In this document: positions 37,250-61,900 of the stretch, one piece after another | How positions within the stretch are numbered: the stretch's first letter is position 1 | Layout of the letters: every line of letters begins with the position of its first letter | Assembly: GCA_029262695.1 (NCBI GenBank) | Contig: JAJCYV010000010.1 | Coordinates: forward strand, 1-64,000 | Direction of reading: 5' to 3' | From: Chloroflexota bacterium | Lineage (GTDB): Bacteria; Chloroflexota; Dehalococcoidia; SM23-28-2; RBG-16-64-32 | Length of the DNA stretch: 64,000 bases | Translations under genes and position numbers: made by a program | The notes under the pieces: model-generated | What the model saw: only the letters and a program-made list of their open reading frames with translations | The model's database searches: none | Told to the model about the DNA's origin: nothing

Positions 37250-38896
37250 CTACTCCTGCTGGCCGGACGCCGATTGCAGCATCTGCAGCAGGTCTGGACG
37301 GCCACCAGCGAGCGACTCCGGATGTGACTCGCCGCGGAGACCGCGCATCGCCAGCGGGATGAGCGGCAGGAGGTCGCCGGCGATGGCGCCCGCGGAGCCC
37401 ATCTCGTCGCGAAGCCTCTGAGCGGCGAGGCCGCCGACGTAGAGGCCAAGGCAGGCGGCGTCGAAGGGGTCGACACCCTGCGCGACGAAGCCGGCGATCG
37501 TGCCAGCGAGGACGTCGCCGGTGCCGGCGGTGGCGAGCGCGGGGTTCGTGAAGGGGCTGATAGCCGCGCGGCCGTCCGGTGAGGCGACGATGCTGGGGGC
37601 GCCTTTGAGGAGCACGTTCACGCCCCACGCGGCGGCGTACTTGCGGGCCGTGCCGGGGCGATCGGCCTGCACTTCGGCGATGGAAAGGCCCGTCAGGCGT
37701 GCCATCTCGCCGGGGTGCGGGGTGAGGACGGCCGGGACGTTGACCAGCGACGGCCAATCCTCGATGCGCGCCAGGTTGTTGAGGCCGTCGGCGTCGATGA
37801 CGACGGCGTGCAGGGCGCGATCGGAGTCTTCGGGTGGCTCAGTGTTGAGCGGCGGAACGAGCGCGCGGACGAACGCCTGCACGTAGCCGCTCTGCGAGAG
37901 GCCGGGGCCGACGAGCAGGCATTCGTAGCCACGGCGTAGCGCGCGGAGGACGGCGTGGGCTTCCTGCGCTGAGAGCTCGCCCTCCTTGTCGTCCAGCGGC
38001 TCGAACGTCGTCTCGCTGAGCCTGGCGGCGAGAATGGGGTGGACCGAACGGGCGCAGGCGAGAGTGACGAGGCCGGCGCCGGTGCGCATGGCGCCCATGC
38101 AGGCGAGATAGGCGGCGCCCGTGTAGCGGGGCGATCCGGCCACGATGAGCGCGCTGCCGAACGTGCCCTTGTGAGCGTCGTCCGGGCGTCGTGGCAGGTG
38201 CTCCTGTGCCCAGCGGCGCGTGATCAGCTCGGTCTTAACGGACGAGGCGAGCTCCGCCGGCACTCCGATGTCGACGATCTCGACTTCGCCGGCATAACCG
38301 GCGCCGGGCAGGACGTGCAGGCCGACCTTGGCGAACCCGAGCGCAACCGTCCTGTCGGCGGCGACTGTGAGCGGGTCCACGCCGCCGGTATCGGCGTCGA
38401 GCCCGCTGGGCAGGTCGACGGCCAGCAGGCGTGGCGGCAGGCGGCGCTCGCGGGCCTCCTTCAGCCGGGCGAGGACGATGGCGAGGTCGCCTTCGATGGG
38501 CCGGGCGCTGCCGGTGCCGAGGAGAGAATCGATGACGAGTTCGGCGCCGCCAAGCGCGTCGGCGAGGCTCTTTTCCCAGCCGTTCTCGCCGGCGGTGATG
38601 ACCGGAACCTGGCGCTCGACGAGCGCGGCGTGGTTCGCGTCGTCGTCGGGGCGCGGCTTGAGCAGGAAGACGATGACGTCGGCCGCCCACTCTTTGAGGT
38701 GACGGGCGGCGACGAGGCCGTCGCCGCCGTTGTTGCCGGGGCCGCAGAGGACGAGGATGCGCCGCTCGGCGATCTCGCCCAGGGCGAGCCAGGCTTCCTG
38801 TGCCGCGGCGAGGCCGGCGTTCTCCATGAGCTGCGGCACGGTGACGCCGGCATCGGCCTCCAGGCGCATCATTTCGGCGACGGTGACGAGCTTCAC
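37250..38896 (-). CDS. nnr: Bifunctional NAD(P)H-hydrate epimerase / ADP-dependent NAD(P)H-hydrate dehydratase
   Basis: A 548-residue repair enzyme for damaged NADH and NADPH. Residues about 1-215 are the YjeF-N epimerase domain with CGPGNNGGDGLVAARHL and VDLPSGLDADTG. Residues about 230-530 are the ribokinase-like dehydratase with AGSPRYTGAAYLA, LTPHPGEMARLTG, LLKGAPSIVASPDG and NPALATAGTGDVLAGTIAG. All family motifs are intact and the fusion is the common bacterial form. It is convergent with the LysM gene (21 bp). Confidence 0.96.
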   Translation of the reverse strand: MKLVTVAEMMRLEADAGVTVPQLMENAGLAAAQEAWLALGEIAERRILVLCGPGNNGGDGLVAARHLKEWAADVIVFLLKPRPDDDANHAALVERQVPVITAGENGWEKSLADALGGAELVIDSLLGTGSARPIEGDLAIVLARLKEARERRLPPRLLAVDLPSGLDADTGGVDPLTVAADRTVALGFAKVGLHVLPGAGYAGEVEIVDIGVPAELASSVKTELITRRWAQEHLPRRPDDAHKGTFGSALIVAGSPRYTGAAYLACMGAMRTGAGLVTLACARSVHPILAARLSETTFEPLDDKEGELSAQEAHAVLRALRRGYECLLVGPGLSQSGYVQAFVRALVPPLNTEPPEDSDRALHAVVIDADGLNNLARIEDWPSLVNVPAVLTPHPGEMARLTGLSIAEVQADRPGTARKYAAAWGVNVLLKGAPSIVASPDGRAAISPFTNPALATAGTGDVLAGTIAGFVAQGVDPFDAACLGLYVGGLAAQRLRDEMGSAGAIAGDLLPLIPLAMRGLRGESHPESLAGGRPDLLQMLQSASGQQE

Positions 38897-38992: not shown

Positions 38993-40567
38993 TTACGCCG
39001 GAACGCATGGCGGCTCGATGATGCCGGCCAGCCGCCGGAGCAGAATCAGCGCGTCCACGATATCGACGTCTCCGTCGCAGTCGAGGTCGCCCAGCGCGAC
39101 GCATTCCGGAACCCCGAGCGAACCGACGAAGCGCAACAAGGCCAGCTCGTCGTAGGGCGACAGGGCCCCGTCGCAGTCCACGTCGCCGGAAAGCGCTGCC
39201 GGCGGTGGCGCGGCCGCCCCCGCCTCGTACGCACCGATGTCGCAGCCCCCGGAAGGGCGCACGGCGCCCCGCTGATCCGCCGCGGGGCACTCTGCGTCGT
39301 CGGCCGCGCCGATCGCGGGACTGGCCGCGAGGAGCGCGTGCGTCAGCGTGGGACCGCCGTTGTCCGCGAGTTCGCCGAGCAGCGGATCGACGCCGGACAG
39401 ATCGCCAGGCCCGGAGAGCCCGCAGCTACCGTCGCTGTCGAGGTTGTGGCCGAGCGATTGCGGCGGGACGTAGAATCCGACCTGCGGGCAGTTACCACCC
39501 TGATTGTCTGCCACCACGGTGTTGATCAGAGTCGTCACGCTGCCATCATTCCTGGTAAAGATTCCGCCCGCCTCCGACGATGCTTCGTTGCCCGCAACCG
39601 TTGAGTTGATCATGATAATCGTCCCGTCATCCTTGTTGGATATCCCCCCACCTCCGGGGCTCCCTCCCTGCGGATCCGCACGGTTGTCCGAAATGGTGGA
39701 GTTGATGATGACCAGGAAACTGCCCGCACCAAAGTTGTGAATCCCCCCTGCGCCTTCGGCCTGTCCACCCGTCGTGTTCGCCGTAATCAGGCTGTCCCGC
39801 ACGGTCATCGACCCGTGGTTTGCGATGCCCCCGCCGCCTGTCGTATCCCCATGGTTCGAAGAAATCATCAATCGCTCCAGGATCGCGAGCCCGCCCCTGT
39901 TATACACGCCCCCGCCCGGGCCAGTGAGGGCCGCGATGTTGCCTTCTATCAGGCTGTCGCTGAGACGCAGCGTGCCGCCGTTGTTGCAGACGCCGCCGCC
40001 GCCGCGCCGGAATGTGTTGTCCCGGATCACCACGTGTGACACCGTCAAGTCGCCGGCGTTGCGTATTCCTCCTCCGCAGGTCTCGTCGAACGACAGGATC
40101 GCGGACATAAATACGTCGTGAATCGTCAGGTCCCGCACCGACACTACACCTTCCCGGACATCGAATATGCGATCCACGGCAAACGCGTCTTCAGTGATTC
40201 CGGTGTCCGACGCGCCGGCGCCGACGATGGTCAGGTCGTCGGTGATGTCCAGATCACCGACCGCCGACTCATTCTCCTCGTAGCCATCGCGCGTCAAGAC
40301 GTAGTCGCCGGCAGGCAGGATCACCGTTTGGTGGCCGGGCAGGACGTTGGTTTCCTGGACGGCGGCACGCAGTGTGCACAGGCCGCCTGCAGCCGCACAA
40401 AGGCCGTCGCCGGGGGTCACATCGACGGCGTCGTCAGTTGAGGTGACGTCGAACGTCTGACCGCCAGGCTGGGTAGAGGTCGCGGGGGGCGGGCTCCCGG
40501 CTAGCGCGATCCCAATGACCACGCTTGTCAGCGCCAACAGCGCCGTCCGCTTGAGATACGAAATCAT
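38993..40567 (-). CDS. Secreted beta-helix protein with CSLREA-like start and dockerin-like end
   Basis: A 524-residue exported protein. A signal peptide covers about 1-28. A CSLREA-type region follows, with DVTPGDGLCAAAGGLCTLRAA near 55-75. Residues about 85-400 are a right-handed parallel beta-helix with many Asn/Gly turn motifs (NNGGTLRLSDSLIEGN; NSTISDNRAD), then the 'choice-of-anchor' type segment NGGPTLTHALLAASPAIG. The last 60 residues contain two EF-hand-like loops (GDVDCDGALSPYDEL, GDLDCDGDVDIVDAL), a dockerin type I-like repeat. A strong ribosome site (GAGGGGGG) decides the ATG at 40567. Surface adhesion or complex anchoring is likely; a cohesin partner is not in the window. Confidence 0.87.
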   Translation of the reverse strand: MISYLKRTALLALTSVVIGIALAGSPPPATSTQPGGQTFDVTSTDDAVDVTPGDGLCAAAGGLCTLRAAVQETNVLPGHQTVILPAGDYVLTRDGYEENESAVGDLDITDDLTIVGAGASDTGITEDAFAVDRIFDVREGVVSVRDLTIHDVFMSAILSFDETCGGGIRNAGDLTVSHVVIRDNTFRRGGGGVCNNGGTLRLSDSLIEGNIAALTGPGGGVYNRGGLAILERLMISSNHGDTTGGGGIANHGSMTVRDSLITANTTGGQAEGAGGIHNFGAGSFLVIINSTISDNRADPQGGSPGGGGISNKDDGTIIMINSTVAGNEASSEAGGIFTRNDGSVTTLINTVVADNQGGNCPQVGFYVPPQSLGHNLDSDGSCGLSGPGDLSGVDPLLGELADNGGPTLTHALLAASPAIGAADDAECPAADQRGAVRPSGGCDIGAYEAGAAAPPPAALSGDVDCDGALSPYDELALLRFVGSLGVPECVALGDLDCDGDVDIVDALILLRRLAGIIEPPCVPA

Positions 40568-40631
40568 CGGCGTACCCCCCTCGTGCATTACGAGTTTCCG
40601 GGGCAATTCTAACACCGGTCGGGCGTGATTG

Positions 40632-40820
40632 CTCCGCTCGCCGTTCGAGAGCCTCAGGGTGAGCGGAACGGGGGCATGGGTGGCGTGGGTGACGGGCGGG
40701 CGACCGCCGGTCGCCCCTACGCGGGGCGTCGCGGCAGGTCAGGCTTCAGCCTGACCTGCGATGGGCACTGAGCCCCAGCCGCTCCCCGCCGGGCGGTTCG
40801 CGACCCGCCCCTACGCGGGG
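40632..40820 (+). repeat. Cluster of short palindromic repeats
   Basis: From left to right: a CTCAGGGTGAGCGG element (about 40632-40670); GGGCGAC-CGCCG-GTCGCCC-CTACGCG (40698-40723); a perfect 11-bp inverted repeat CAGGTCAGGCT-TC-AGCCTGACCTG (40735-40758); and GGGCGG-TTCGCGA-CCCGCC-CCTACGCG (40791-40817). No gene is present. Confidence 0.85.
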
Positions 40821-40838: not shown

Positions 40839-40917
40839 CTAGGCGGAGGTGGCGGCGTATTTTTCGGGGGCGCGGACGAACTGGCGCAGGCAGGCGTCGG
40901 TGCAGAAGGCGTGGTCT
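40839..40917 (-). pseudogene. Duplicated 3' fragment of the cyclase-YHS gene
   Basis: On the minus strand it encodes DHAFCTDACLRQFVRAPEKY followed by AATSA and a stop, nearly identical to the C-terminal YHS residues of the gene at 41015. Upstream it runs into repeat sequence with no open start, so it is a remnant. Confidence 0.7.
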
Positions 40918-40924
40918 GGGTGCC

Positions 40925-41000
40925 CCGTTCGCACCTTCGATACCTCAGGGCGAACGGGACGCGGTGCGCGAGGCGGCGCGGCGAGTCAGGCTAAAGCCTG
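40925..41000. repeat. Two dispersed repeats before the cyclase stop codon
   Basis: A CGTTCGCACC...CTCAGGGCGAACGG element lies at about 40925-40960 and GTCAGGCT-AA-AGCCTGAC at 40983-41000. The latter is related to 40735-40758. Confidence 0.75.
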
Positions 41001-41014
41001 ACCTTCGAAGGGCG

Positions 41015-42418
41015 CTAGACGGCGGTGTACTTCTCGGGGGCGCGGACGAACTGGCGCAGGCAGGCGTCGGTGCAGAAGGCGTAGTCGACGCCCTCGATCG
41101 TGAGATGCGCGGCGACTTCGCCCTTTCCCATCTCCATGCCGCAGACCGGGTCGGTCACTTTTTCGATCGTCTCGGCGGCGGCGGGGCGTGGTTCGAACAG
41201 CTCGACTTCGGCGGCGAGGCCTTTGAGGCGCTGCTTGCCGATCCGTGTCCACTCCACGCCCTCGAGTTCGCGGGCGCGGTCGCGCACCTCGGACGAGACG
41301 AGGACCTGGTGGCGGTCGGCGCGGTCGGCGAGGCGTGAGGCGATGTTGACGTTGGAGCCGATGTAGTCGCCCTCTCGGTAGAGCACAGGCCCGTAGTGGA
41401 GGCCGACGCGGATGGCGGGGAACTGCGGCTCGGCGGTAGCGCGGTGCTGCAGCTCGAGCGCGGCGGAGACGGCGGAGTAGCACTCCGGGAAGACGATCAT
41501 GAAGCCGTCGCCGATCTGCTTGACGACGCGGCCGTGGCAACGAATGTTGGCGACGCGTACCATTTCGGCGAAGCGAGAGACGATCTCGGCCGCCTTGAGG
41601 TCGCCCATCGCCTCGGCCAGGGGGGTGAAGCTGGCGAGGTCGACGAACATGATCGCCTGGCGGACCTGGCCGGGGATCTCCGGCTGTTCGGCGAGGCCGG
41701 ACTCTTCTTCGAGGTGCATGAGCATGTCGTCCCAGGCGGCCTGGATCGCGCCCTTGCGGAAGAAGAACATGAGCGCCGGCTCAATAAGCGGCTCGACCTG
41801 GCTGAAGGTGCGCTCCAGGCGCTTGTCTGCGTCCTCCCCAGGCGCCTCCGTCACGGCCGGCTGGTGGAGGTAGAAGTGGGATGTGCGGTGGCCAACCTCT
41901 GCGGCGCGACGCATGAGGTCGGCGTAGACGCGCAGGATCTGGATCAGGGCCTCCGCCGGAAAGCCGGAGTCGAGGGCGACCTTGAGCGATCGCAGAAAGC
42001 CGAGGTCTTCCTCGTCGAGCATTCCGCTACTATCGGCGACTCCTGTCGCCTCAGTAAACGCCTTCGTCTGCTCAGCGTCGAGGCCGGTGAGTTCGACGGA
42101 CTCGGCCAGCGTGAAGGTGGGGCCGGAGAGGTGGCGCGTCATCTCGTCCAGGTAGTAGCTGCGCATCGTGTCGGGCTGATGGAGGACGTTGCGGATGTCG
42201 TCGAGTGAGTGCCCGTAGTGGAGCAGCTGGTGAATGAGGCGCACGCGTCCGACATCCTCGGGGCTGAAGACGTCTTCGCCCTCGAGGCCGATCAGTCCGC
42301 AGGTGCGCCAGGCTTCGAGCCTGGTCGCGGGTTCGGCCGTGCGGCCGGCGAGTTCCTCCAGGGAGAGCGACGCGGTGGAGAGCGGGGCGGCGCCGTGGTG
42401 GTGGGGTGAGCAGGTCAT
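41015..42418 (-). CDS. MerR-like / class III adenylate cyclase / YHS three-domain protein
   Basis: A 467-residue soluble protein. Residues about 18-95 resemble a MerR-type winged helix (ATRLEAWRTCGLIG, FSPEDVGRVRLIHQLLHYGHSLDDI). A helical middle (about 100-250) follows. The cyclase domain spans about 258-420: the metal Asp in MFVDLASFT, Lys-x-x-GDG in VVKQIGDGFMIVF, adenine-type Asp in GDYIGSNVN, and Asn/Arg in NVNIASRL are all present, so an active adenylate cyclase is predicted. The end (about 423-467) is a YHS domain, DPVCGMEM and FCTDACLRQFV, likely to bind metal. A four-bp ATGA overlap couples it to acpS. Metal-regulated cAMP synthesis is a hypothesis. Confidence 0.82.
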   Translation of the reverse strand: MTCSPHHHGAAPLSTASLSLEELAGRTAEPATRLEAWRTCGLIGLEGEDVFSPEDVGRVRLIHQLLHYGHSLDDIRNVLHQPDTMRSYYLDEMTRHLSGPTFTLAESVELTGLDAEQTKAFTEATGVADSSGMLDEEDLGFLRSLKVALDSGFPAEALIQILRVYADLMRRAAEVGHRTSHFYLHQPAVTEAPGEDADKRLERTFSQVEPLIEPALMFFFRKGAIQAAWDDMLMHLEEESGLAEQPEIPGQVRQAIMFVDLASFTPLAEAMGDLKAAEIVSRFAEMVRVANIRCHGRVVKQIGDGFMIVFPECYSAVSAALELQHRATAEPQFPAIRVGLHYGPVLYREGDYIGSNVNIASRLADRADRHQVLVSSEVRDRARELEGVEWTRIGKQRLKGLAAEVELFEPRPAAAETIEKVTDPVCGMEMGKGEVAAHLTIEGVDYAFCTDACLRQFVRAPEKYTAV

Positions 42419-42858
42419 GTAAGTTGCCCCCTTTCGCGGAGGATTGCGGCGAACCGCTCGCGCCAGTGCTCGCGGTCGGGTTCGAGGTCGTGAGAAACGC
42501 CGACGACCATGGCGACGGCAAGCTGGCGGCTGTGGCTGAGGCTGATGTCGATGCCCTGGAGCGCGATGCGCTCGGCCCTGGCCTGCGCCCTGCCGTGCAG
42601 GTAGACGAGCGGCTTGCCGCGGTGGTTGGGGAGGATCTCGATCTCGCGCCAGGCGACGCCGTGAGCGCCTGTGCCCAGTGCCTTCATCACGGCCTCCTTG
42701 CCGGCGAAGCGCGCCGCCAGCTCGCTCACACGGCCGCGGCAGAAGGCGACTTCGAGCGGCGTGTAGACACGATCGAGGAAGCGATCGCCGAATTTGGCCA
42801 ACGAAGCCTCGATACGAGCGATTTCGATTATGTCGACACCGGCAGCGCCCTGTTTCAT
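42415..42858 (-). CDS. acpS: Holo-[acyl-carrier-protein] synthase
   Basis: A 147-residue phosphopantetheinyl transferase that activates acyl carrier protein with the arm of coenzyme A. The magnesium and CoA motif GVDIIEIARIEA is at about 7-18; the second motif FAGKEAVMKALG lies at about 51-62, and ISLSHSRQLAVA is near 102-113. Slightly longer than the usual 120-125 residues because of the C-terminal tail. The stop overlaps the start of the cyclase gene (ATGA). Confidence 0.92.
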   Translation of the reverse strand: MKQGAAGVDIIEIARIEASLAKFGDRFLDRVYTPLEVAFCRGRVSELAARFAGKEAVMKALGTGAHGVAWREIEILPNHRGKPLVYLHGRAQARAERIALQGIDISLSHSRQLAVAMVVGVSHDLEPDREHWRERFAAILRERGQLT

Positions 42859-42991: not shown

Positions 42992-43477
42992 ATGCCTTCG
43001 GTGACCGTCTCGATCTCGATCCCGGCGACGCCGGAGAAGGTGTGGGCGGTGGTGTCCGACGTCGCCAACGCGCAGCGCTGGAACAAGGCGTGGAGCCGCA
43101 TTGAGCTGACGACGGCGCTCAGCGAGGGCCGCGGCACGCGGTTTCGCGCCCACGTCGACGATGAGGACGGCGCAGGCCATGCGTTTGAATTCGAGATCAC
43201 GGAATGGCTGGCGCCGGAGCACATCGTCTTCACGCCTATCCGCGACCCGGATGAGGAGCTGTACCAGATCTCGCTGGACTGGCACGCGTTCCGGATCGTG
43301 CCCCTGGACGGCGAGAATAGCCGCGTGGACCTGACGGCGCAGGCGACGACGCGCGGCCTGCGCGGACGGTTCGCGGGCCTGCTGCTCTGGCCGGGGCACC
43401 AGAGGCCGGGCCTGGAGGAGGCGCTGAGCTCGCTGGCGGAGTTGTTCGGCGTCGAGCCAGCCGACGACCCGTCCTGA
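42992..43477 (+). CDS. SRPBCC-family (polyketide cyclase/START-like) protein
   Basis: A 161-residue ligand-binding helix-grip protein. The N-terminus MPSVTVSISIPATPEKVWAVV and DVANAQRWNKAWSRIELT are typical of the polyketide cyclase/dehydrase group, and RVDLTAQATTRGLRGRF is the usual antiparallel strand region. It may bind a small hydrophobic ligand; enzymatic activity is not evident. A ribosome site (AGAGGAAGAG) precedes the ATG. The start lies within a 17-codon upstream reading frame beginning at ATG 42951. The metallopeptidase gene follows with no gap. Confidence 0.82.
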   Translation: MPSVTVSISIPATPEKVWAVVSDVANAQRWNKAWSRIELTTALSEGRGTRFRAHVDDEDGAGHAFEFEITEWLAPEHIVFTPIRDPDEELYQISLDWHAFRIVPLDGENSRVDLTAQATTRGLRGRFAGLLLWPGHQRPGLEEALSSLAELFGVEPADDPS

Positions 43478-43478
43478 G

Positions 43479-45401
43479 ATGCGCGTAACGTCAGCCTGCC
43501 TGCTGGCGCTGGCGGCTCTGCTGTTCCTCGGGAGCGGCGAGAGAGCGCGCGCGGACGATCTGGCGGAGATCACTTCAAGCGTCAACTACGAGGTGCGCGC
43601 CGAAGAGGACGACGTTCTCGTGACGTGGGACGTCTCGTTCACGAACAACGATCCGGACTTCTTCATCTTCGCCCTGCCCGTGCCGGTGCTGGCCGGCGCG
43701 ACTGACGTCACCGCTTCCTCCGCCGCCGGAGCGCCGCTCTCCACGAGCGCCGAGCCGACGGAGATCGACCTGATCGACTTCCAGTTCGTCTCGTTCGACC
43801 GCAACGTCTTCTTCGGTGGGGTCTACGACTTCACACTCTCGTACGTCGTGCCTGAGGCGCGCCAGAGCGGGCTGGTTGTGACGCCGTTCTACGTCTTCTT
43901 GCCGCTCCTGGCGTTAGGCGACGAAGCGACCGTGACGACGACTGCTCCCGACTCCTCGCCGTGGCTCTCAACCGTCGAGCCGGTCGACTGCGAAAGAGCA
44001 GACGACGCACTTGCCTGCTCCGGCTCAGAGGGTGTTTATTTCGCCGGCAATCTGGAGGTGAGGCAGCCGAACGCAACGCAGACCGACAGCTTCGACCTCT
44101 CGATCGGCGGCAACGAGGTCACGGCGTCGATCGAGTACTTCCAGGGCGAGGACGCCGCCGCCGCGCATCAGCGGGAAGTGATCGAAGCGACGCTGCCCTT
44201 GATCGCCGATGTTTACGGGTTTCCGTATCCGGGCGCGCCCAGCATCGCGATCGTACACAGCGGACGGCAGTCCGTCCTTGGATACGAGGGTCTGGCCGAG
44301 TGCACGTCTGGACTCTGCGAGATCCTGATCTCGCCGGGGGCGCGCGACTATACGCTCGTGCACGAACTGGCGCACGTGTGGTCCGGCGTTTTCGCGGCGC
44401 GCTGGCTCAGCGAAGGGTTTGCGGACTGGGTGACGACGCAGGTTGTGGACCGGGCGCCGGAGGGACTTCTCACAGGCGACCTGACGCCGACGTCGCCCGC
44501 CGCTGTGCCGCTGCAGCTCGACGAATGGGGAGATGCGGGACCCTTGATAGGCGCTCCCCCGGAGCAGCTCGCGACGGCGCTTGCGGGGTACGACTACTCG
44601 CTGCGGTTCTTGCGGACGCTGGCGGATGAAGTGGGCGCGGAGACGCTGCGGGAGGTTAACCGGACGCTGGCAGAGAGCGGCGAACCAGCCGACAGCCGGC
44701 GCTACATGGACGTGCTGGAGGACGTGAGCGGCCGTGACGTCGACTCGCTGTTCTTGGTCTGGGTCTTCTCGGAGTCGTCGCGGCCGCTGGTTGAGGAGCG
44801 GAGGGAGGCCCGCGACCGCTTCGCGGAGATCGAGTCACGGCTGATCGACGAAGGCGTGTCGGAAGAGTCCCTCGATGCGGCGTGGGAAGCGATCCTCGAC
44901 TGGCGGTTCGCCGGAGCGCGGAGCGAGATGGATGCGGTGGAAGCAAACATCGGCCGCGCGCTTGAGCTTCAGGACGAGCTGCGCGGCCTCAAGGACGACG
45001 CCGATGCGCTGGGGCTGGCGGTGCCGGAGTCGATCGCCGCAGCGATCAGCAGCTGGGATTTCGACGGGGCGGACGATCTGATCGAATCCGCGCGTGAGGC
45101 GATGGGCGCGTACGGTGTGGCGCGGGAGCGTCTGGACGAGCCGCGAAACCTGTGGCAGCGGTTCGGGCTGCTGGGCGACGACCCGGAGGGCGAGTTGGCG
45201 AAGGCGCGCGATGCCTTCGAGGAGGGCCGCTTCGGGCGCTCGCAAGACCGCTCAGCGGCGGCTATCGACATAGTCGACGACGCGTCGCGCTCGGCGATGC
45301 TGCGTTTGCTGGTGGTTGCCGGGATCTTCTCCGCGCTCGCGGTCGCGATCGGAGCGGCGTACTGGACCGCGATGCTGCAGCGGCGGCGGGCCGAGCCCTA
45401 G
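43479..45401 (+). CDS. Membrane-anchored metallopeptidase-like protein
   Basis: A 640-residue exported protein. A signal peptide spans about 1-25. A beta-rich N-terminal part (about 27-215) precedes a gluzincin-like active site with His295, Glu296 and His299 in VHELAHVW and Glu312 in WLSEGFADW. Residues about 430-600 are helical and probably coiled (RDRFAEIESRLIDEG, ELQDELRGLKDDA). The C-terminus has one hydrophobic helix (about 605-632). It starts one base after the SRPBCC stop codon, so both are cotranslated. Substrate unknown; it is a second protein of this type, besides the one at 31568, but differs in architecture. Confidence 0.83.
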   Translation: MRVTSACLLALAALLFLGSGERARADDLAEITSSVNYEVRAEEDDVLVTWDVSFTNNDPDFFIFALPVPVLAGATDVTASSAAGAPLSTSAEPTEIDLIDFQFVSFDRNVFFGGVYDFTLSYVVPEARQSGLVVTPFYVFLPLLALGDEATVTTTAPDSSPWLSTVEPVDCERADDALACSGSEGVYFAGNLEVRQPNATQTDSFDLSIGGNEVTASIEYFQGEDAAAAHQREVIEATLPLIADVYGFPYPGAPSIAIVHSGRQSVLGYEGLAECTSGLCEILISPGARDYTLVHELAHVWSGVFAARWLSEGFADWVTTQVVDRAPEGLLTGDLTPTSPAAVPLQLDEWGDAGPLIGAPPEQLATALAGYDYSLRFLRTLADEVGAETLREVNRTLAESGEPADSRRYMDVLEDVSGRDVDSLFLVWVFSESSRPLVEERREARDRFAEIESRLIDEGVSEESLDAAWEAILDWRFAGARSEMDAVEANIGRALELQDELRGLKDDADALGLAVPESIAAAISSWDFDGADDLIESAREAMGAYGVARERLDEPRNLWQRFGLLGDDPEGELAKARDAFEEGRFGRSQDRSAAAIDIVDDASRSAMLRLLVVAGIFSALAVAIGAAYWTAMLQRRRAEP

Positions 45402-60559: not shown

Positions 60560-61900
60560 ATGGATCTGAAGATGCAGTACGCAACGGCCAGCGACGGCGT
60601 GCGAATCGCGTACGGAACGGCGGGCGACGGGCCAACGGTTGTCCGGGTGCCGAGCCTGCCGTTCAGCCATAGCCAGCGGGAATGGGAGAACGGCAGCGAT
60701 TTCTACGAAAAGCTGGCCGACAAATGGCGCATCGTTCAGTTCGATCCACGCGGGATTGGCCTGTCAGAGCGGAACGTTGATGACTTCTCGCTGGAGAAGC
60801 GAATGCTGGACATCGACGCCGTGCTGGACAAGCTGGACGTTGGAGCAGTTCCGCTGCACGGGATCGGCTGGAGCGGACCGCTGGTGGTGACGTACGCGGT
60901 GCGGCACCCGGAGCGCGTATCGCACCTGATCCTGGACGACTCCCACGCGCGGACCCAGGATTTCATGAACATGCCGCAGATCCGCGCGCTTGACCAGCTG
61001 ACCGGACAGTGGGACACGTTCCTGGAGTACCTGGTGTACATGATCTATGGCTACGGCCGTGAGCAGGCAGCGCCGATCGTGGAATACATGCGGGCGTGCG
61101 TGTCACCCGAGGGCGCGCAGCTCATCTTCGAGAACGCCCGCGGTGACGACGTGTCCGACCTGTTGCCGCAGGTGACGCAACCGTCGCTCGTCGTGCAGCA
61201 CAAGGGGATGACAGACCAGTCTGAGGAGTCGGGGCGGGAGCTTGCCGCGCTCATGCCGAATGCCAGCCTCGTTATGCTGGACGGCCAGGCAGCGGACGAC
61301 ACCGACCGCATCATTCACGCGATCGCCGACTTCCTGGGCACGGAGCACGCCGAGCACCACGCCCCGAAGACGGCCGCGACGCCCCCTTCGACGGCCTCCG
61401 GAGTGCGGACGATTCTCTTCACGGACCTGGTGAGCCACTCGGAGATGATGTCCCGGCTGGGTGACGAGCAGGGGCGAAAGGTGCTGCGCGAGCACGAAGA
61501 TGTGACGCGGCGCCTGTTGAGCGAGTACGGCGGCGACGAGGTGAAGTCGATGGGTGACGGGTTCATGGCCTCGTTCGGCTCGGTGACGAAGGGTGTGGAG
61601 TGCGCTATCGCGCTGCAAAGGGCGTTCGCCAGGCACAACGAGAGCGGCGACGAGCCGCTGACCGTCCGTGTCGGCCTGAACGTGGGAGAGCCGATAGAGG
61701 ACGGCGGCGACCTGTTCGGGGCGACGGTGATCATGGCGGCGCGCATTGCGGCCAAGGCCGAGGCGGCCGAGATACTGGTGGCGAACGCCGTCCGCGAGCT
61801 ATCGGCGGGTAAGGGTTTTCTGTTCGCCGACCGCGGCGACTTCGTGGCGAAGGGCTTCGAGGAGCCGGTGCGCGTGTACGAAGTGCGCTGGCGCGACTAG
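60560..61900 (+). CDS. Alpha/beta hydrolase fused to class III nucleotidyl cyclase
   Basis: A 446-residue soluble fusion. Residues about 1-265 are an alpha/beta hydrolase with FDPRGIGLSE and the nucleophile region HGIGWSGPLVV near 98; the usual G-x-S-x-G ends with Pro instead of Gly. Residues about 285-446 are the cyclase domain: the metal Asp in LFTDLVSHSEMM, Lys and Asp in VKSMGDGFMASF. The transition-state Asn of NxxxR appears replaced by Ile in TVIMAARIA, while the Arg is kept, so activity needs testing. GATAAT (60548-60553) ends 6 nt before the ATG, consistent with a leaderless transcript. It may sense a ligand through the hydrolase-like domain. Confidence 0.85.
   Translation: MDLKMQYATASDGVRIAYGTAGDGPTVVRVPSLPFSHSQREWENGSDFYEKLADKWRIVQFDPRGIGLSERNVDDFSLEKRMLDIDAVLDKLDVGAVPLHGIGWSGPLVVTYAVRHPERVSHLILDDSHARTQDFMNMPQIRALDQLTGQWDTFLEYLVYMIYGYGREQAAPIVEYMRACVSPEGAQLIFENARGDDVSDLLPQVTQPSLVVQHKGMTDQSEESGRELAALMPNASLVMLDGQAADDTDRIIHAIADFLGTEHAEHHAPKTAATPPSTASGVRTILFTDLVSHSEMMSRLGDEQGRKVLREHEDVTRRLLSEYGGDEVKSMGDGFMASFGSVTKGVECAIALQRAFARHNESGDEPLTVRVGLNVGEPIEDGGDLFGATVIMAARIAAKAEAAEILVANAVRELSAGKGFLFADRGDFVAKGFEEPVRVYEVRWRD

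Follow-up and report, generated by a model that had tools for sequence, protein, structure and literature searches.

We analysed a 64,000-nucleotide stretch of DNA from a Chloroflexota bacterium (contig JAJCYV010000010.1, positions 1 to 64,000 of the forward strand; hereafter the window) and found that it encodes a 467-residue class III adenylate cyclase in which two MerR-like units precede the catalytic domain and a YHS domain follows it (Table 1). Taken as a whole, the protein is likely to be a soluble class IIIc cyclase that would be activated by copper through the YHS domain and would receive a second input through a regulatory module like that of Rv1264. Each pair of modules is already known separately; their presence together on one cyclase is new to the sources we could search, as is the twofold MerR-likeness of the Rv1264 module.

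Table 1 Features of the cyclase locus, with positions in the window.
Feature	Position	Strand	Basis
Cyclase gene, 467 aa, class III adenylate cyclase (MerR-like ×2, cyclase, YHS)	41015..42418	-	ORF, Pfam, alignment, AlphaFold2 model
MerR-like helix-turn-helix unit 1, residues 18–80	42179..42367	-	Pfam MerR_1; profile matches to MerR, SoxR and CueR structures
MerR-like unit 2, residues 103–165, core-equivalent of the Rv1264 regulatory domain	41924..42112	-	hhalign; CarH match
Long helices, residues 155–239, linker from regulatory module to catalytic domain	41702..41956	-	AlphaFold2 model, mean pLDDT 86.8
Class III cyclase catalytic domain, residues 251–412, class IIIc Rv1264-like length	41183..41668	-	Pfam, alignment, Foldseek
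YHS domain, residues 421–464, putative metal ligands D423, C426, C449, C453	41027..41158	-	Pfam, motif
acpS, holo-ACP synthase (neighbour, outside the mechanism)	42415..42858	-	Pfam PF01648, TIGR00516
Four-base ATGA overlap between the acpS stop codon and the cyclase start codon	42415..42418	-	Sequence; recurs in close relatives
nnr, NAD(P)HX epimerase/dehydratase	37250..38896	-	Pfam; gene context in relatives

Domain architecture and catalytic domain

The open reading frame lies on the minus strand, with its ATG at 42418 and its stop codon at 41015–41017. Pfam matches above the curated cut-offs were obtained for MerR_1 (residues 19–80, E = 6e-7), Guanylate_cyc (residues 255–400, E = 8e-11) and YHS (residues 421–464, E = 1e-9), so that the three folds named in a preliminary description of this DNA (MerR-like, cyclase and YHS) are all present. 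PF16701 (Ad_Cy_reg) matches residues 57–215 slightly under its cut-off (E = 1.2e-5; 25.6 versus 28.6 bits). Identity as a GGDEF (diguanylate cyclase) domain was rejected: the Pfam overlap is weak (16.5 versus 23.8 bits), and class III is by a wide margin the stronger match. Measured against relatives of the same genus, dN/dS is 0.11–0.47 in every domain, meaning that amino-acid changes are rarer than synonymous ones, and the whole chain is therefore a maintained protein.

Class III cyclases canonically rely on six catalytic residues: two metal aspartates, a lysine and an aspartate for adenine, and an asparagine and an arginine for the transition state. All six, as the preliminary description had claimed, were found (D260, K300, D304, D351, N358 and R362), and they are invariant in the 23 aligned sequences. 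The dimerisation arm is short and, in that stretch, aligns without gaps to Rv1264, a class IIIc enzyme, which gives the class IIIc pattern. The modelled cyclase domain superposes on Ma1120 at 1.3–1.8 Å for the best pairs. From these sequence features, the 467-residue protein is predicted with high confidence to be an active cyclase making cAMP.

The 2.5-Mb genome encodes at least nine other cyclase domains of class III, one of them in the window at 61382–61885 (+) and others outside it, on contigs C1, C4, C8, C27, C36, C41 and C42 of the same assembly (G000), which points to heavy use of nucleotide cyclases.

The N-terminal module

In the PDB, Rv1264, the pH-sensing cyclase of Mycobacterium tuberculosis, gives the strongest match, both by sequence (E = 1e-25, residues 58–417) and by fold (Foldseek E = 1e-19 to 1e-22 for 1y10/1y11). 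In the AlphaFold2 model (mean pLDDT 86.8), the part before the cyclase domain forms two successive helix-turn-helix/helix/helix patterns, with helices at residues 20–27, 31–39, 53–67 and 72–79 in unit 1 and at residues 104–111, 115–125, 136–150 and 155–191 in unit 2. A separate model of the isolated N-terminus has the same two-unit pattern (pLDDT 87.3). An hhalign comparison of units 1 and 2, covering 64 columns, scores 59; no score exceeded 15 when the columns were shuffled 200 times, and other stretches of the same proteins gave no more than 13.5. These controls rule out a chance likeness and, on this profile comparison, the two units are homologous. Unit 1 further matches the profiles of MerR, SoxR and CueR and unit 2 that of CarH. 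A Pfam scan of the window protein's unit 2 by itself gave no match.

Unit 2 and the helix after it align with the Rv1264 regulatory domain (hhalign E = 3e-8, 97%), and the Rv1264 match starts inside the final helices of unit 1. Each of the 23 aligned sequences has a match to PF16701 (at E ≤ 0.1) as well as to Guanylate_cyc, and three of the four YHS-bearing relatives scanned singly reach the PF16701 cut-off (relatives at 28.6–43.7 bits). Foldseek searches with the isolated N-terminal model returned Rv1264N together with MerR-family structures; these matches are weak (best E = 1.6e-3, TM about 0.4), and with so poor an overlay the units may not be arranged as they are in Rv1264. The N-terminus is best described as an Rv1264-type cyclase regulatory module (PF16701) containing two MerR-like units. 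A module of this type appears to be built of MerR-like units, and the MerR and Ad_Cy_reg labels are then not rivals. The MerR-like fold proposed for this region was not refuted by fold prediction, as judged from the AlphaFold2 models and the structure matches of the isolated N-terminus; the second unit and the long Rv1264 match had both been overlooked earlier.

The YHS domain and a possible copper response

A D-x2-C-x22-C-x3-C motif is present in all 13 sequences that reach the YHS region. In the window protein, the spacing of its putative ligands equals that of D178, C181, C204 and C208 in the AC-YHS protein of Mycobacterium phlei (EID14989.1, 233 aa; J. U. Linder), and the chain has the AC-YHS architecture, in which one cyclase domain precedes a C-terminal YHS domain carrying this motif. 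The Pfam match and the conserved ligands support the metal-type YHS domain that had been proposed. The M. phlei enzyme is activated by micromolar copper (PMC4626032); of seven ions, no other turned it on with Mg. The same paper counts 26 cyclase-YHS proteins of 216–473 aa, so that some longer forms were already in databases, and in the part available it describes no N-terminal regulatory module on them. The union of cyclase and metal sensing in one chain had been put forward as new; cyclase-YHS enzymes are in fact known, and one is copper-activated.

By analogy with this enzyme, copper may activate the window cyclase through the YHS domain, a proposal in which we have moderate confidence. The metal is not readable from sequence, and some YHS/TRASH domains go with other metals and some with none, toluene-4-hydroxylase having a YHS domain without bound metal (PMC4626032). 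The domain might thus sense zinc, iron or thiol oxidation, or be only structural, with the rest of the protein behaving as in the main explanation. However, a ligand spacing identical to that of the copper-specific M. phlei enzyme and kept in 13 of 13 sequences, the constraint on the YHS domain (dN/dS) and the response of that enzyme to copper alone all weigh against this alternative, which we regard as rather unlikely while allowing it some weight.

Elsewhere in the genome (L067, contig C22 around 300,400), a P-type metal ATPase that carries the motif CPC is followed by a small YHS protein; this pair probably serves copper export and fits the copper reading of the cyclase. Within the window, the 66-base end of the YHS coding sequence (41021–41086) is repeated downstream at 40851–40916 with 94% identity, which looks like a recent partial duplication. 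Each 66-base copy is followed by a copy of the palindrome GTCAGGCTNNAGCCTGAC (40738–40755 and 40985–41002). This palindrome occurs at 19 places in the 2.53-Mb genome, compared with none for a reversed control pattern, and is a dispersed REP-like repeat.

Relatives and distribution

The full architecture was found at 12 further loci in 11 other genomes, which the titles of the matching records assign to Chloroflexota, class Dehalococcoidia; these proteins are 43–82% identical to the window protein. At E ≤ 1e-25, 17 of the 393 genomes from the class contain a match, and most of these belong to the same family as the window genome; at E ≤ 1e-30, only 8 of the 400 genomes from the phylum do so. 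Except for the window's own, the phylum matches comprise the N-terminal module and the cyclase with no recognised YHS domain. Two genomes encode a shorter, mycobacterial-like cyclase-YHS protein without a match to the N-terminal module (L042, L043), and at one locus from Actinobacteria (L023) only the end of a cyclase-YHS protein is visible and its N-terminus was not found. At one locus (L033, the same as L022) the first ~80 codons are not in frame with the remainder, perhaps owing to an error in the assembly. Genomes G598 and G537 each have a tandem duplication, with two cyclase-YHS genes in head-to-tail order flanked by acpS and nnr (L038/L045/L065 and L039/L047/L066).

Gene neighbourhood

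Wherever the position is visible, in 11 genomes from the window's family and one neighbouring family in the same order, the gene before the cyclase is acpS. The nnr gene comes after the cyclase in all nine genomes that reach that far; it lies close downstream in relatives with both genes in view and, in the window, after an extra gene. That gene (38993–40615, minus strand) is found between cyclase and nnr only in the window; its 540-aa product is repetitive and beta-helix-like in sequence and weakly matches dockerin. Elsewhere in the window, a Polyketide_cyc2 (SRPBCC-type) gene at 42992–43477 adjoins a gene at 43479–45401 (+) whose 640-aa product contains the metalloprotease motif HELAH and weakly matches Peptidase_M1.

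In seven genomes of the same order without the cyclase, acpS directly abuts nnr (L048–L053, L057), as it also does in genomes that carry a cyclase-YHS gene elsewhere (L054, L055). In genomes from outside the order (L059–L061), the gene for this protein has neighbours other than acpS. Because acpS abuts nnr in cyclase-free relatives and the protein is placed elsewhere outside the order, the simplest history is that the cyclase was inserted into an acpS–nnr housekeeping operon, the alternative being loss in the other genomes.

The overlap of the two reading frames had been read as a hint at control of lipid or polyketide synthesis. If the overlap were functional, the cyclase could sense the acyl-carrier or fatty-acid state and tune such synthesis, and the constant position of acpS, the stop/start overlap in close relatives and the reports of oleic acid between the domains of Rv1264 and of activation of Rv2212 by oleic acid (PMC12505454) would all fit. 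However, the seven cyclase-free genomes indicate that the underlying pair is acpS–nnr, the protein lies away from acpS outside the order, and no genes for the synthesis of fatty acids or polyketides were observed next to the cyclase. The ATGA overlap is real and kept within the order, but a functional coupling to acpS was rejected on this evidence and appears improbable.

Unlikely DNA binding by the N-terminal units

The preliminary description took the N-terminus for a MerR DNA-binding domain, of which the fold is retained here and the function is not. The wing is several residues shorter than in MerR and SoxR and its basic motif is replaced (for example, by EGEDVF), as are the helix-2 arginine and tyrosine that contact DNA in MerR regulators. 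Unit 1 has a negative net charge in most members, and unit 2 a net charge of −5 to −9 in all YHS-bearing members, whereas the computed net charge of the first 42 residues is +3 in MerR and +6 in SoxR, whose wing carries the basic motif. Because the wing is shortened, its motif replaced and the units mostly acidic, binding of a promoter or other DNA by the N-terminal units is unlikely as judged from sequence.

Were the protein a genuine DNA-binding MerR regulator with a cyclase attached, it would bind a promoter and make cAMP there in response to metal. Unit 1 does exceed the Pfam MerR_1 cut-off, matches MerR, SoxR and CueR, and shares the genome with just three other MerR_1 loci that were found. 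Set against this, in addition to the wing and the charges, the entire module is that of Rv1264, a cyclase regulatory domain, and the housekeeping neighbours suggest no target gene. As the main reading it was rejected on the wing, the charge and the Rv1264 match, and we consider it very improbable. There is also a slim chance that unit 1 keeps DNA or nucleoid binding and that cAMP is made locally at a promoter upon copper binding to the YHS domain, which would place a metal sensor, a DNA binder and a second-messenger source in one chain.

Proposed mechanism

In the preferred explanation, a copper-activated class IIIc cyclase with a second input, the YHS domain would bind a transition metal, most likely copper, via D423/C426/C449/C453, and the metal-bound domain would turn the catalytic dimer on in the manner of the M. 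phlei cyclase. The two MerR-like winged-helix units, through the long helices that follow, would set how the cyclase domains of the dimer meet; the module would respond perhaps to pH or fatty acid and would have no promoter-binding role. This second input is proposed with lower confidence, by analogy with the pH or fatty-acid control reported for Rv1264 and Rv2212 (PMC12505454). That the metal is copper, that it activates rather than inhibits, and what the second ligand might be, we likewise infer by analogy. The cAMP produced would act through cNMP-binding (CRP-like) proteins of the genome, a step proposed with moderate confidence, with four cNMP-binding loci as candidate receptors. Since the cyclase gene is inserted between acpS and nnr, it would be expressed together with them.

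A literature search combining MerR with adenylate cyclase found nothing relevant, and no relevant paper joining the Rv1264-type module with MerR was found in the open literature, the sole co-mention being unrelated by title and abstract. With an Rv1264 module and a YHS copper switch in one chain, dual-input control of a single cyclase becomes testable. The regulatory domain of Rv1264 is a Pfam family in its own right; the present protein suggests that it is composed of MerR-like winged helices, and that a transcription-factor module became an enzyme-control module.

Comparison with known systems

The M. phlei AC-YHS protein shares with the window protein a cyclase domain, then a C-terminal YHS domain with four identically spaced putative metal ligands; it has 233 residues and no N-terminal module, whereas a 250-residue Rv1264-type module stands before the cyclase in the window protein. 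With Rv1264 and other PF16701 cyclases such as Rv2212, the likeness covers unit 2, the long helices and the class IIIc domain, which align over ~360 residues, and in Rv1264 the six catalytic residues are identical. Rv1264 is without a YHS domain, however, and the window protein has a complete unit 1 and the added metal-type domain. Both N-terminal units share their fold and sequence profile with MerR, SoxR, CueR and CarH, as well as the long helix after unit 2; unlike these regulators, the window protein has a shortened wing without the basic motif, is mostly acidic in this region and lies in no promoter context.
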